A stretch of DNA of 64,000 nucleotides from Thermoplasmata archaeon (GTDB lineage: Archaea > Thermoplasmatota > Thermoplasmata > Lutacidiplasmatales > UBA184). A program made the translations under genes and the position numbers. Under the pieces are notes generated by a model that was not told the DNA's origin, did no database searches, and saw only the letters and a list, made by a program, of their open reading frames with translations. Within the stretch, counting starts at the first letter, position 1; each line of letters begins with the position of its first letter. Location: assembly GCA_027315455.1 (NCBI GenBank), contig DAHUXZ010000009.1, positions 1 to 64,000 on the forward strand, given 5' to 3'. Shown one piece after another: positions 33,101 through 41,985 of this stretch.

Positions 33101-33564
33101 ATCGTCGCGTTGTACGCGGCGAGGGCGACGCCCGTGACCGTGACGGGGTTGGCCGTCGGGTTCGTCAGGGCCGACGAGCTCTCCCAGTAGTACTGGGGGT
33201 TCGGGTTCTGGGGGATGACGGCGCAGGGGTTGCAGCCGTAGAGGTGGGCGTGGGCTTGGGGAGGGACCCAGACGCCCCACCAGCCGGGGGCGAGGCCGCC
33301 CGCGGTGTTGGCGGCGGTGAAGCTGAACTGGCCGCTCAGCGAGGCCGTCGTGGTAGCGGAGACCTGGTGGGTCGCGGACGAGATCAGGTTCACGGTGACC
33401 CCCGCAGGAACCGGCGGCGGCGACCCGCCGCCTGCCTGGTCGACGTACCCCAGTAGGGTATAGGTCGGTCCGGCCGCTCGCGCCCCCGGCACCGAGGCCA
33501 GCGAACCCGCCAGCACCAGCACGACGAGGGCCCACAACGCGGCTCGCGGTAGCCCGTTAACCAT
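30172..33564 (-). CDS. Large secreted surface glycoprotein-like protein with PKD-like domain and C-terminal TM anchor
   Basis: Signal peptide LPRAALWALVVLVLAGSLASVPGARA; many NxS/T sequons; YQWAWGDGTFTNTSSPTTYHTYTGAQSYAGSLTV (PKD-like); C-terminal TM YIIYGAVGGAAVVLILLAVFFYRRR. Confidence 0.85.
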   Translation of the reverse strand: MVNGLPRAALWALVVLVLAGSLASVPGARAAGPTYTLLGYVDQAGGGSPPPVPAGVTVNLISSATHQVSATTTASLSGQFSFTAANTAGGLAPGWWGVWVPPQAHAHLYGCNPCAVIPQNPNPQYYWESSSALTNPTANPVTVTGVALAAYNATIWGNVTYNGQPQGGALVELLQPTISGFVYANNTTVAKATNTTVVGEFSLSVPYGTWVLETIVPGNPNHYSLLQVTVNSAKQTVNPVVANYMVWGWVNQVANPSAHIPAGGNVTVVDTSTSYIYSAPTPAGGYYSFGAYPAGFTGTGARTFEVVLAPVGWQTVSYPVTISAASPNGSGPNPHIVLSRPQVPPAQYLTTLNFSSGFGKVAVATQATLGNDSVFPDLTNASVGQLWAQLALDWQHNLAFDAANLTHVLGWINASGPFFAAGQSNLAVAAAGGAVGFGQPTNYTFTNTTTCTATCGLTSSASLDLYWAQAYNVTGSLAASAKNYTVSFNFRHPTNGQVFNYTVVLPSGYVLAAGNPVPAQSRLAPAGPGGTWTSFTLVSLPSASPSSTATFSVVRYANVTAIVNVTTSNFAFSKANVLNQTRGHYEVIIGSGENATFSALNSTFPAGTNGTLYQWAWGDGTFTNTSSPTTYHTYTGAQSYAGSLTVTSSGGRTSATAFTVYTDNVPPTAQISTNATVLSSGSVSYVWVNWSRTLHFNASLSSDTVYSGAPVHGILSIASWNITSAGGYQTTANYTASSGVTNPSQRNLTLTFLGAGDYYTNGTLPFPFAATFYGWEYNVSLKVWDGAGHLASATLVVLVNDTEKPTPVLAIQDSAGRTISSSGIIEGSNGTADVVLVATNSTDPHNGSIASYFWNITNPVNRSANRTISQPAVQPGFKLPAKPQLWLAPQSKPYTVNLTVTDRAGNTAYTTSQLTVSINTSQRPVLSVSNLTTPTTMTEGTSYTVWVNVTNTIGKNSTAEALAVRFYLLSPGGGGSQIGIGGTVSYYNYSSSGVVATSPWAGVVNLPYNHTVRAQISFNPGRTGTWDLWANATATNEFVGDYTAGANQAHVQVTLNPNPTSQYIIYGAVGGAAVVLILLAVFFYRRRGMGGTPSSKAKPSSSSTGKASSSSTGKAGLERSSKKDEEDDEE
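30221..30268 (-). repeat. 24-bp perfect tandem duplication in cytoplasmic tail of surface protein
   Basis: GCCTTCCCGGTGCTCGAGCTCGAC x2 (30221-30244, 30245-30268), encoding SSSSTGKA repeats. Confidence 0.9.
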
Positions 33565-38452: not shown

Positions 38453-39025
38453 TTGTCCCCCATCCCGCCGACGGAGAGCCGGACCCTCCTGGCCGTCGGG
38501 GCCCGCCGGCGCGAAGCCGGTCGGCCGGACCGCGGCGAGATCGTCCAGACCCTCCGCCGCCTCGGGGGGGAGGGCGGCGGGCTGGTCGCGCTGTTCGACG
38601 CCCGGGCGATCGCCGGGGAGCGCCACCTCCTCTCCGCCTGGGCGCATCTCGGTCGCGCTCGCGCACGGGGCGAGGAGCGCCTGCGCGACCGGGGGGCCGA
38701 GTTCGCGCTGTTCGTCGCGGGGGACGACCAGCTCCCGAAGGCGCTCGGGAAGGTCGGCGTCGCGGCCGACACGGACCGCTTCGTCCTCGTCGTCGAGCGG
38801 CCGCGCACGATCGCCGATACCCTCGCCGCCTTCGGTCTCGAGGAGGACGCCACGGCCTACCCGGTCGGGCCCACCGCGAGGACCCTCGAGCGTCTCGGCA
38901 TCTCCGCCGAGGAGCACGGGAGCGTCCCCCCGTCGGCGTGGGAGGGGCTCGTCCTCGAGCGCATCGCCCTGGTCGAGCTCGCCGGCGCCCATGCCGCCCC
39001 GGCCCGGTCGACCCCAAAGCATTAG
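38453..39025 (+). CDS. KEOPS complex subunit Cgi121-like
   Basis: ALFDARAIAGERHLLSAWAHLGRARARGEERLRDRGAEFALFVAGDDQLPKALGKVGV; TTG start. Confidence 0.7.
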   Translation: MSPIPPTESRTLLAVGARRREAGRPDRGEIVQTLRRLGGEGGGLVALFDARAIAGERHLLSAWAHLGRARARGEERLRDRGAEFALFVAGDDQLPKALGKVGVAADTDRFVLVVERPRTIADTLAAFGLEEDATAYPVGPTARTLERLGISAEEHGSVPPSAWEGLVLERIALVELAGAHAAPARSTPKH

Positions 39026-39065
39026 GCACGGGCGCCGGTGGCGGCGCGTCCGGCGGGGACGCGCT

Positions 39066-39170
39066 GCAGGCGTAATCTAGCGGTAGGATGTCAGCCTTCC
39101 AAGCTGACTACCCGGGTTCGAATCGCCGACGCGCCCGCGGGCGCGCGGCGCGGACGTCCCGGCGCCTGCA
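39066..39170 (+). tRNA. tRNA-Gly(TCC) with predicted about 34-nt intron in the T arm (39124-39157, junction ambiguous by 1 nt)
   Basis: Hand-folded mature form GCAGGCG TA ATCT AGCGGTA GGAT G TCAGC CTTCCAA GCTGA CTAC CCGGG TTCGAAT CCCGG CGCCTGC A (71 nt); acceptor and T stem pair perfectly only after removing 39124-39157. Confidence 0.8.
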
Positions 39171-39225: not shown

Positions 39226-39309
39226 GCTGAGGTAGCCTAGCCCGGCAAGGCGCCAGCCTTGAAAGCTGGTGGCGGCAACGCCCCGGGAGTTCAAATCTCC
39301 CCCTCAGCG
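39226..39309 (+). tRNA. tRNA-Ser(TGA)
   Basis: Acceptor GCTGAGG/CCTCAGC, anticodon arm CCAGC-CTTGAAA-GCTGG, long variable arm, T arm GGGAG-TTCAAAT-CTCCC, discriminator G; no intron. Confidence 0.93.
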
Positions 39310-39371: not shown

Positions 39372-41985
39372 ATGCCCGAGCCCGTGGTCGTGACTCCCCT
39401 CATGGAGCAGTACGAGGGGGTCAAGGCCCGCTATCCGGGACATCTCGTCCTGTTCCGGGTCGGGGACTTCTACGAAACGTTCGGGGACGACGCGAAGCTG
39501 CTCTCCCGGGAGGTCGAGGTCGTCCTGACCGCCCGGGCCGCGGACGGCCGCGGCGAGCGGATGCCGATGGCCGGCGTCCCCCACCATGCCGTGGACACCT
39601 ACCTGGGACGGCTCGTGAGGAAGGGGTTCAAGGTCGCGATCTGCGACCAGGTCGAGGACCCGAAGGCCGCGCGCGGGCTCGTGCGGCGCGAGGTGACGCG
39701 CGTCGTCACCCCCGGAACCGTCGTCGAGGACCGTATCCTGCCCGGGCCCGAGCACAACTTCCTCGCGAGCGTCGTCCTCCCGGCGGAGGGGCCTCCCGCC
39801 GTCGCCGCCGTCGACATCACCACGGGGGAGTGGTTCCACGGGCTCGCCCCGACGTCGGGAGCGGACGGGGTCCTGCAAGGGCTCGTCCCGTTCGCGCCGA
39901 GCGAGGTGCTCCTCGCGCTTCCGCCCGACCCGTCGCGCCGGCGGGAGGTCGAGTCCGCCCTCCGCCGGGAGTTCCCGAGGGCCCGTCTCGAATCCGCGCC
40001 GCCGGCCGCGGCCGAGCTTCCCCCCTCGCTCGCGGCCGAGGCGACGGAGCCGCTCGTCGGCGAGGCGGACCGACGCCTGGCGGCGTACGTCGGCCAGACC
40101 CAGCCGCGCCTGCTCCCCTACCTGGAGGTCGTGCCGATCACCGCGGGGCGACGGCGGATGCACGTCGACGCGAAGACCCTGCGCCATCTCGAGATCGCGC
40201 GGCCGATGAACCCCGACGACCCGTCCGGCCCGACCCTCCTGTCGGTGTGGGACGCGACCGTGACCGCACCGGGACGGCGGACGATCGGGTTCTGGCTGCG
40301 GAACCCGCTCGCCGACGCCGCCGCGATCCGGGAGCGCCTCGACGCCGTCGACGCGCTGCGGGCGCGGGGGGCCGCCCTCCTCGAGCTGCGGGAGCGGCTC
40401 GGGCCCGTCGCCGACCTCTCGCGGATCGCCTCCCGGGTCGTCGGCCGGCTCGTGCGCCCGCCCGAGCTCGCGGCGCTGCGGTCGAGCCTCCACGCCATGG
40501 CGGCCGTCGCCGAGGCCCTCGGGGAGGCCCCGACGGGTCTCCTCGGCGGAGGCCCTCGCCGGCCGGCTCGACCCGCTGCCCCGCCTTTGCGAGCGGCTCG
40601 CCACCGCCCTCCCCGAGGAGCCCCCTCCCACCGCCGACCACGGCGGGCTCTTCCGGGCGGGCTTCTCCCCGGCGCTCGACGCCCTTGTCGCGGAGGAGCA
40701 GGGGGGTCTTGCCGAGCTCGAGGCGCTCGAGCGCCGTGAGCAGGAGGCGAGCGGGATACGCACGCTCAAGGTCGGGTACAACCAGGTCTTCGGCTACTAC
40801 TTCGAGATCACGCGGCCGAACCTGGGCCGGGTCCCCGCGCACTTCCGGCGGAAGCAGACCCTCTCGGGCGGGGAGCGGTTCACGACGGAGGAGCTCGCGC
40901 GGATCGAGGAGCGGGTCCTCGCCGCCCGCGCCGCGCTCGGCTCCGCGGGGGCGGAGGCGTGGGAAGGGTTGCTGGCCGAGATCGACCCGTGGGTGCCCGC
41001 GCTCCACCGGCTCTCCCGGGCCGTCGGGGAGCTCGACACCCTCGCCGCGTTCGCCCTGCTCGCCCAGGAGCGGAACCTCGTCCGGCCCGAGGTCGACGAG
41101 GGCACGGCGCTCGTCATCCGGGATGGACGCCACCCCGTCCTCGACCGCACCCTCGGCCGTCGCTTCGTGCCGAACGACACCGACCTCGATGCCGACGGTG
41201 ACCGCCTCCTGGTCCTCACCGGGCCGAACATGTCCGGCAAGTCGACCTACATGCGGCAGGTCGGCCTCCTCGTCCTCCTCGCCCAGGCCGGCTCGTTCGT
41301 GCCGGCGCGGTTCGCCCGGGTCGGGGTCGCCGACGCGGTGTTCACGCGGATGGGGTTCACCGACGAGATCGGCCGCGGGAAGTCGAGCTTCATGGTCGAG
41401 ATGAGCGAGGTCGCCGAGATCCTCCGCTCGGCCGGCCCCCGGTCGCTCGTCCTCCTGGACGAGGTCGGGCGGGGCACGAGCACGTTCGACGGCCTCGCGA
41501 TCGCGTGGTCGGTCCTCCGCCATCTCTGCGAAACCGTCCGATGCCGGACCCTCCTCGCCACGCACTACCACCAGCTCACCGAGCTCGTCGAGCCCCTCGC
41601 CGGCGCCCGGAACGCCCACCTCGCCGTCGATGAATCGGGCGGCGAGATCGCGTTCCTCCACCGGCTCGTCCCCGGGAGCACGGACCGCAGCTACGGCCTC
41701 CACGTCGCGCGGCTCGCCGGCCTTCCCCCGGCGCTGCTCTCCGAAGCCGACCGGCTCCTGGGCCGCCTCGAGTCCGAGGGGGTCCGGCTCGCCCCGGGCC
41801 GCCGGCGCGGCGCGCCGACGCGCTACACGCAGGGGATCCTGCTTCCCGCCCCGTCGGCCGGCCCCTCTCCTTTCGAGTCCGCCCTCCTCGCGCTCGACCC
41901 CGACCGGATGGCCCCGATCGACGCGCTCGCCTTCCTGGCCGAGTGGCGCCGGCGGCTCGGCGAGGGAGCGCCGCCCCCGCCGTGA
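39372..41985 (+). CDS. mutS: DNA mismatch repair protein MutS, reading frame broken near 40540-40545
   Basis: First frame: LFRVGDFYETFGDDAKLLSREVEVVLTAR...; continues in another frame from AEALAGRLDPLPRLCERLATALPEE through TGPNMSGKSTYMRQVGLLVLLAQAGSFVPA...DEVGRGTSTFDGLAIAW. Confidence 0.9.

Follow-up and report, generated by a model that had tools for sequence, protein, structure and literature searches.

An intron at position 59/60 of the tRNA-Gly(TCC) gene of a Lutacidiplasmatales-type thermoplasmate and its counterparts in other tRNA genes

How can a genome supply glycine tRNA for GGA codons when the only gene detected for it is broken within its T arm? The question is raised by a tRNA-Gly(TCC) gene at positions 39066-39170 on the forward strand of the window (the whole stretch of 64,000 nucleotides that was analysed), the host being a Lutacidiplasmatales-type thermoplasmate, a soil archaeon. 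On the evidence below, it is very likely that the gene is functional and apparently the sole one for Gly(TCC), that it carries a strict bulge-helix-bulge (BHB) intron at tRNA position 59/60 belonging to an old, family-wide set, and that this intron would be spliced by EndA and RtcB.

The interrupted tRNA-Gly(TCC) gene

An acceptor stem GCAGGCG/CGCCTGC and an anticodon arm TCAGC-CTTCCAA-GCTGA were read from the sequence. The 5' strand of the T stem, CCGGG, lies at 39112-39116, and its partner CCCGG is first encountered at 39158-39162. Excision of 34 nt generates a perfect 71-nt tRNA-Gly(TCC) with 12 of 12 acceptor and T-stem pairs, just as an earlier note on this DNA had described in proposing a T arm split by a 34-nt intron. 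The gene was missed by ARAGORN and gave only a shortened match with the Rfam tRNA model (39070-39132, 32.5 bits), as expected since the T arm is interrupted. No second or intronless copy of Gly(TCC), a possibility that the note had considered, was found in scans of the host genome. The features of the locus are as follows:

39012-39026, + strand: AT-rich promoter-like element CCCCAAAGCATTAGG (BRE/TATA-like); congeners have an element of similar form ahead of the gene, as judged by eye
39066-39122, + strand: 5' exon of tRNA-Gly(TCC), tRNA positions 1-59, ending in TTCGAA; the cloverleaf is restored without 39123-39156
39112-39116, + strand: 5' strand of the T stem, CCGGG, forming the outer BHB helix with CCCGG at 39158-39162
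39117-39120, + strand: TTCG (tRNA positions 54-57), exon strand of the 4-bp central BHB helix, pairing with CGGA at 39151-39154
39121-39123, + strand: 5' bulge AA^T, with the predicted 5' cut at 39122/39123
39123-39156, + strand: intron of 34 nt at tRNA position 59/60, its boundary taken from relatives, where the first intron base varies and T60 on the 3' side is invariant
39124-39128, + strand: inner helix CGCCG, pairing with CGGCG at 39146-39150, with a further hairpin (39130-39145) stacked inside
39151-39154, + strand: CGGA, intron strand of the central helix
39155-39157, + strand: 3' bulge CG^T, with the predicted 3' cut at 39156/39157
39157-39170, + strand: 3' exon, comprising T60, T-stem strand CCCGG, acceptor strand CGCCTGC and discriminator A
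39226-39309, + strand: neighbouring intronless tRNA-Ser(TGA), which adjoins tRNA-Gly(TCC) in congeners too

A U at tRNA position 33 is near-universal and is present in the window gene; 46 of the 71 parsed copies from the genus have C33 in its place (loop CCTCCAA). Downstream, MutS (39372-41985) is read as two frames (39372-40739 and 40969-41985) with a frameshift near 40540 that is either real or an assembly error. A tRNA-Ser(ACT) called by ARAGORN at 33404-33487 was rejected as false; the call falls where a protein-coding frame begins and lacks Rfam support.

Introns at position 59/60 in the host genome and its relatives

With a plain tRNA scan of the host genome, many isoacceptors appeared weak or absent. 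A script allowing an interruption after position 59 read these as tRNAs with 59/60 introns, and a covariance model was constructed from 22 intron-bearing tRNA genes of two species. In its alignment, 92.5% of the named pairs form, compared with at most 54% when slid, and two-sided changes were observed in 26 of 31 pairs. The model identified 12 places in the host genome above 80 bits, the next scoring 63 bits; these 12 include an additional Gln(CTG) on a contig of 543 bp, and weaker matches yielded three further isoacceptors, Asn(GTT), Lys(TTT), and Leu(TAG). Including Gly(TCC), 14 isoacceptors were found to carry a 59/60 intron. The other 13, with introns of 28-35 nt, are Glu(CTC), Arg(TCT), Arg(TCG), Ser(GCT), Ser(GGA), Ser(CGA), Ala(GGC), Gln(CTG), Asp(GTC), His(GTG), Asn(GTT), Lys(TTT), and Leu(TAG), and the genome scan detected no intronless copy of any of them. 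As approximately 41 tRNA genes were identified in the host genome, about one third are interrupted at this position. A few expected tRNAs, e.g., Trp and Ile, were not found in the host genome and may be missing from it or hidden by other introns. T-loop variants carried an intron in none of six cases, an association with intron absence that is too weak to claim.

Other positions are also used. Canonical 37/38 introns were found in the host genes for Tyr, Glu(TTC), and Leu(TAA), and four genes carry D-arm introns of 27-33 nt:

G000:C30:9162-9701: Lys(TTT), D-arm intron in addition to the 59/60 intron
G000:C12:8329-8999: Leu(TAG), D-arm intron in addition to the 59/60 intron
G000:C27:16691-17198: Pro(TGG), D-arm intron only, boundaries less certain
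G000:C16:7814-8321: Arg(GCG), D-arm intron only, boundaries less certain

A D-arm intron was also seen in a CAT-anticodon tRNA of one congener (G018). On short contigs of the host assembly (C53 and C74) there are additional copies of Ser(CGA), Gln(CTG), and Leu(TAG) whose exons match those of the main copies; the introns on C74 differ and C53 stops exactly at TTCAAA, and these copies perhaps come from a further strain or species included in the bin.

All 78 genomes of the genus matched the tRNA-Gly(TCC) gene, and each of the 75 complete copies (71 parsed by script, four by eye) carries the 59/60 intron, which ranges from 25 to 34 nt and varies in its letters. The earlier note had allowed for close relatives lacking the insertion; the intron proved to be conserved across approximately 70 separately assembled species. 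An exon-pattern search of named genomes returned 68 matches, nearly all titled Thermoplasmata archaeon, with the intron present in 66 and the other two cut by contig ends before completion. The type genome of Candidatus Lutacidiplasma silvani carries it, as do sister genera in the same family; the Gly(TCC) genes read from other thermoplasmate families are intronless and have the same junction, TTCRAA-TCCCG. The simplest history would be a single gain in the family ancestor.

Across the class, 94 of 150 sampled genomes gave at least one match to the intron-containing tRNA model, with seven to 12 strong matches per genome in family f1, two in the sister family f2, and zero to four in others. All 12 of the matches read from six other families (f2, f5, f13, f20, f23, and f28) were true 59/60 introns, the isoacceptors being Arg(CCG), Arg(TCT), Arg(TCG), Glu(TTC), and His(GTG). 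In a draw from the phylum, judged by model score alone, 24 of 80 genomes had matches, with up to six in a genome outside the class. Non-canonical introns were described in the earlier note as not typical of Thermoplasmatota-like archaea, a view that agrees with reviews (PMC4090602, PMC6379350) but not with these genomes. There is close overlap between the isoacceptors interrupted in the host and those interrupted in sister genera g18 and g20, most of the host set being shared, and as part of the very likely account given at the outset, the introns would have accumulated before the genera of the family split, making the gains old.

A different origin was weighed, in which the 59/60 introns would form a site-specific mobile family that continues to spread among tRNA genes with the T loop as its target. 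The use of one position across 14 isoacceptors and the partly different isoacceptors interrupted in other families of the class would both be consistent with this. Yet introns taken from different host tRNAs show scarcely more resemblance to one another than shuffled sequences do (mean z of 0.29 over 91 pairs, with z >3 in three of the 91; Gly orthologues, for comparison, gave 2.0), and the sharing of much of the set among genera points to old gains, with no sign of recent copying. The similar sequences in different tRNAs of one genome that mark transposed introns of the Thermoproteales type were not found among the host introns. Ongoing spread is therefore considered unlikely.

Intron boundaries and the splice motif

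In the window, a T occurs at both ends of the intron, and two alternative cuts give the same mature tRNA; the earlier note had accordingly offered 39124-39157 or its equivalent shifted by one nucleotide. The relatives favor the latter. Their first intron base is T in 39 copies, A in 24, C in seven, and G in one (n = 71), the T preceding CCCGG is invariant (71 of 71), and hence the junction is AA^N...^TCCCGG, which places the intron at 39123-39156 and at position 59/60. A real intron cut one base further on, by way of a relaxed BHB, would produce the same tRNA from the window sequence, but with a first base other than T in 32 of the 71 relatives, U60 is obtained only from the 59/60 cut, which is also exactly the one predicted by the strict motif; the alternative cut is thus highly improbable.

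The strict motif consists of the T stem CCGGG/CCCGG, a 4-bp UUCG/CGGA helix, two 3-nt bulges (AAU and CGU), and a 5-bp inner helix CGCCG/CGGCG, and it is the minimum-energy fold of the precursor (-57.1 kcal/mol, z = -3.3). Cleavage of BHB motifs occurs after the second bulge base, and the predicted cuts in the window fall where this rule for the strict motif puts them. The GCCG/CGGC helix from which a relaxed BHB with cuts off by 1 nt had been drawn was found to be part of the inner helix, and that proposal was abandoned. Among 68 distinct genus sequences, the 4-bp central helix is complete in 59, compared with a mean of 2.9 and a maximum of nine in 500 shuffles of the intron letters, and the inner-helix pairing averages 4.3 of 5, compared with 2.1 in shuffles. 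The BHB structure is not a product of chance and is preserved while the intron sequence changes. In minimum-energy folds, the T stem and central helix are both present in only 34 of the 68 Gly orthologues because strong GC-rich hairpins compete. In the central helix, a G at base 57 lies opposite C, and an A lies mostly opposite G, which is a mismatch, and sometimes opposite U. Of the 14 host motifs, seven have the full 4-bp helix and seven have one A57.G mismatch.

Self-splicing group I introns of tRNAs have a long catalytic core and usually reside in the anticodon loop. The features of this group are absent here; the intron is 34 nt long with one hairpin, it lies in the T loop, and it matched no Rfam family except tRNA at gathering score. 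A restored cloverleaf, a BHB with 3-nt bulges and 4 bp, and a position other than 37/38 are those of an archaeal BHB tRNA intron at a non-canonical place, which upholds the classification made in the earlier note. Least probable of all is that the locus is a decayed or misassembled tRNA-Gly broken by chance sequence: the assembly is metagenomic, certain other tRNA exons in it reach a contig end or occupy a short contig (C53 and C74), and the adjacent MutS is frameshifted, but the identical interruption with intact exons in separately assembled species, the conserved intron structure, and the kept promoter-like element of the sole Gly(TCC) gene found all argue against a pseudogene or artefact.

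Splicing enzymes, proposed mechanism and comparison with known systems

RtcB was identified in the host genome (PF01139, E = 3.7e-174). EndA was not found in the host assembly using Pfam and a 339-aa congener protein as query; the assembly is rated 94% complete, and the likeliest explanation is an assembly gap. The splicing endonuclease that the earlier note proposed to look for was thus recovered only from relatives, most congeners encoding a single chain of approximately 350 aa with two PF01974 repeats, of which the C-terminal one is catalytic. The alpha'2 EndA of A. fulgidus (1r0v) aligns over both repeats (E = 5.6e-27), and the congener enzyme is, by its chain architecture as read from sequence, alpha'2-like. 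Sequence alignment revealed no insertion in congener EndA at the place of the CSL/ASL, the Lys-bearing loop N-terminal to the catalytic domain. A Lys-rich stretch, PRGGILHKTPSKYW, which occurs in most EndAs of the class and is absent in family f15, was rejected as a CSL/ASL-like loop; it sits in the N-terminal repeat, aligned with the pseudo-active-site segment. The alpha'2 type has been reported to be narrow in specificity (PMC6379350), and the alpha'2 EndA of Thermoplasma is listed as such (PMC4090602, PMC6379350). This narrowness, taken with the A57.G in the central helix of seven of the host's other 59/60 introns, weighs against the proposed splicing.

It is proposed that, in the transcript, the T stem together with the universal T-loop sequence UUCRAA would fold as the 5' half of a strict BHB, and the last six bases of the intron (CGGACG in the window) as its 3' half. 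The exon would supply, in bases 54-59 (UUCRAA), one side of the central helix plus two 5'-bulge bases, and the intron would supply the opposite side plus two 3'-bulge bases in its last six positions. EndA would then cut after A59 and before U60, and RtcB would join the exons. Because the T arm stays unclosed until splicing, this step probably precedes T-arm modification, the action of RNase P and tRNase Z, and CCA addition. In most tRNAs, the T loop reads TTCRAAT, and consequently almost any of them could accept a 59/60 intron without exon change, which may account for the concentration on one position. More tentatively, and with somewhat less than even confidence, we suggest that the T loop serves as a built-in half splice site, allowing introns with a short 3' half to settle in almost any tRNA at 59/60; that their removal, from roughly one third of the tRNA genes, is carried out by a two-domain EndA of a type thought to act only on introns at canonical positions; and that neither folding of the tRNA elbow nor any subsequent maturation step proceeds before splicing.

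Position 59/60 is among the listed non-canonical positions of archaeal tRNA introns (PMC4090602). According to reviews, tRNA introns are few and confined to 37/38 in euryarchaeal lineages with alpha4 or alpha'2 enzymes, and the EndA type sets intron diversity (PMC4090602, PMC6379350). No papers on tRNA introns in Lutacidiplasmatales or Thermoplasmatota were found within an incomplete coverage of the literature, and introns are unmentioned in PMC9287336; such introns may well be listed by tRNAscan-SE in archaeal mode in annotation that has gone undiscussed. The kind of intron is known, and what is apparently undescribed is its family-wide concentration on one T-loop position together with an alpha'2-like enzyme. 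This family, in which roughly one tRNA in three has a 59/60 intron, offers a natural test of the enzyme-type rule: either the alpha'2-like enzyme needs no more than a strict BHB, whatever its position, or its specificity has been broadened by other means. Moreover, plain tRNA searches (ARAGORN, Rfam) lose or shorten the interrupted genes, and estimates of completeness and codon reading can therefore be wrong.

Four known systems invite comparison. Thermoproteales and other Crenarchaeota possess non-canonical BHB tRNA introns (Sugahara 2008; Fujishima 2010, cited in PMC4090602 and PMC4033280) and resemble the host in having short BHB introns away from 37/38 in many tRNAs per genome, some with two. 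In contrast, the host belongs to the Thermoplasmatota, its introns are strongly concentrated on 59/60 with few in the D arm, those of its different tRNAs are without clear sequence similarity, and the congener EndA is a two-domain protein rather than the crenarchaeal (alpha beta)2 form with its Crenarchaea-specific loop. The Asgard lineages Atabeyarchaeia and Freyarchaeia are likewise uncultured soil archaea with many non-canonical tRNA introns and some tRNAs with several, but introns occur in 92-95% of their tRNA genes, over half of which have more than one (PMC11291895), compared with about a third of those detected in the host, mostly at 59/60. The non-canonical tRNA introns of ARMAN, served by an epsilon-2 EndA (PMC12397907), also lie outside the Crenarchaeota, whereas the congener EndAs are without the three-unit architecture and have no insertion at the ASL/CSL place in sequence alignment. 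Finally, the canonical 37/38 introns of Euryarchaeota (alpha4 or alpha'2 EndA) share with those of the host the strict BHB and, in congeners, the two-domain type of enzyme; the 59/60 introns of the host differ in location, interrupting the T loop and not the anticodon arm.
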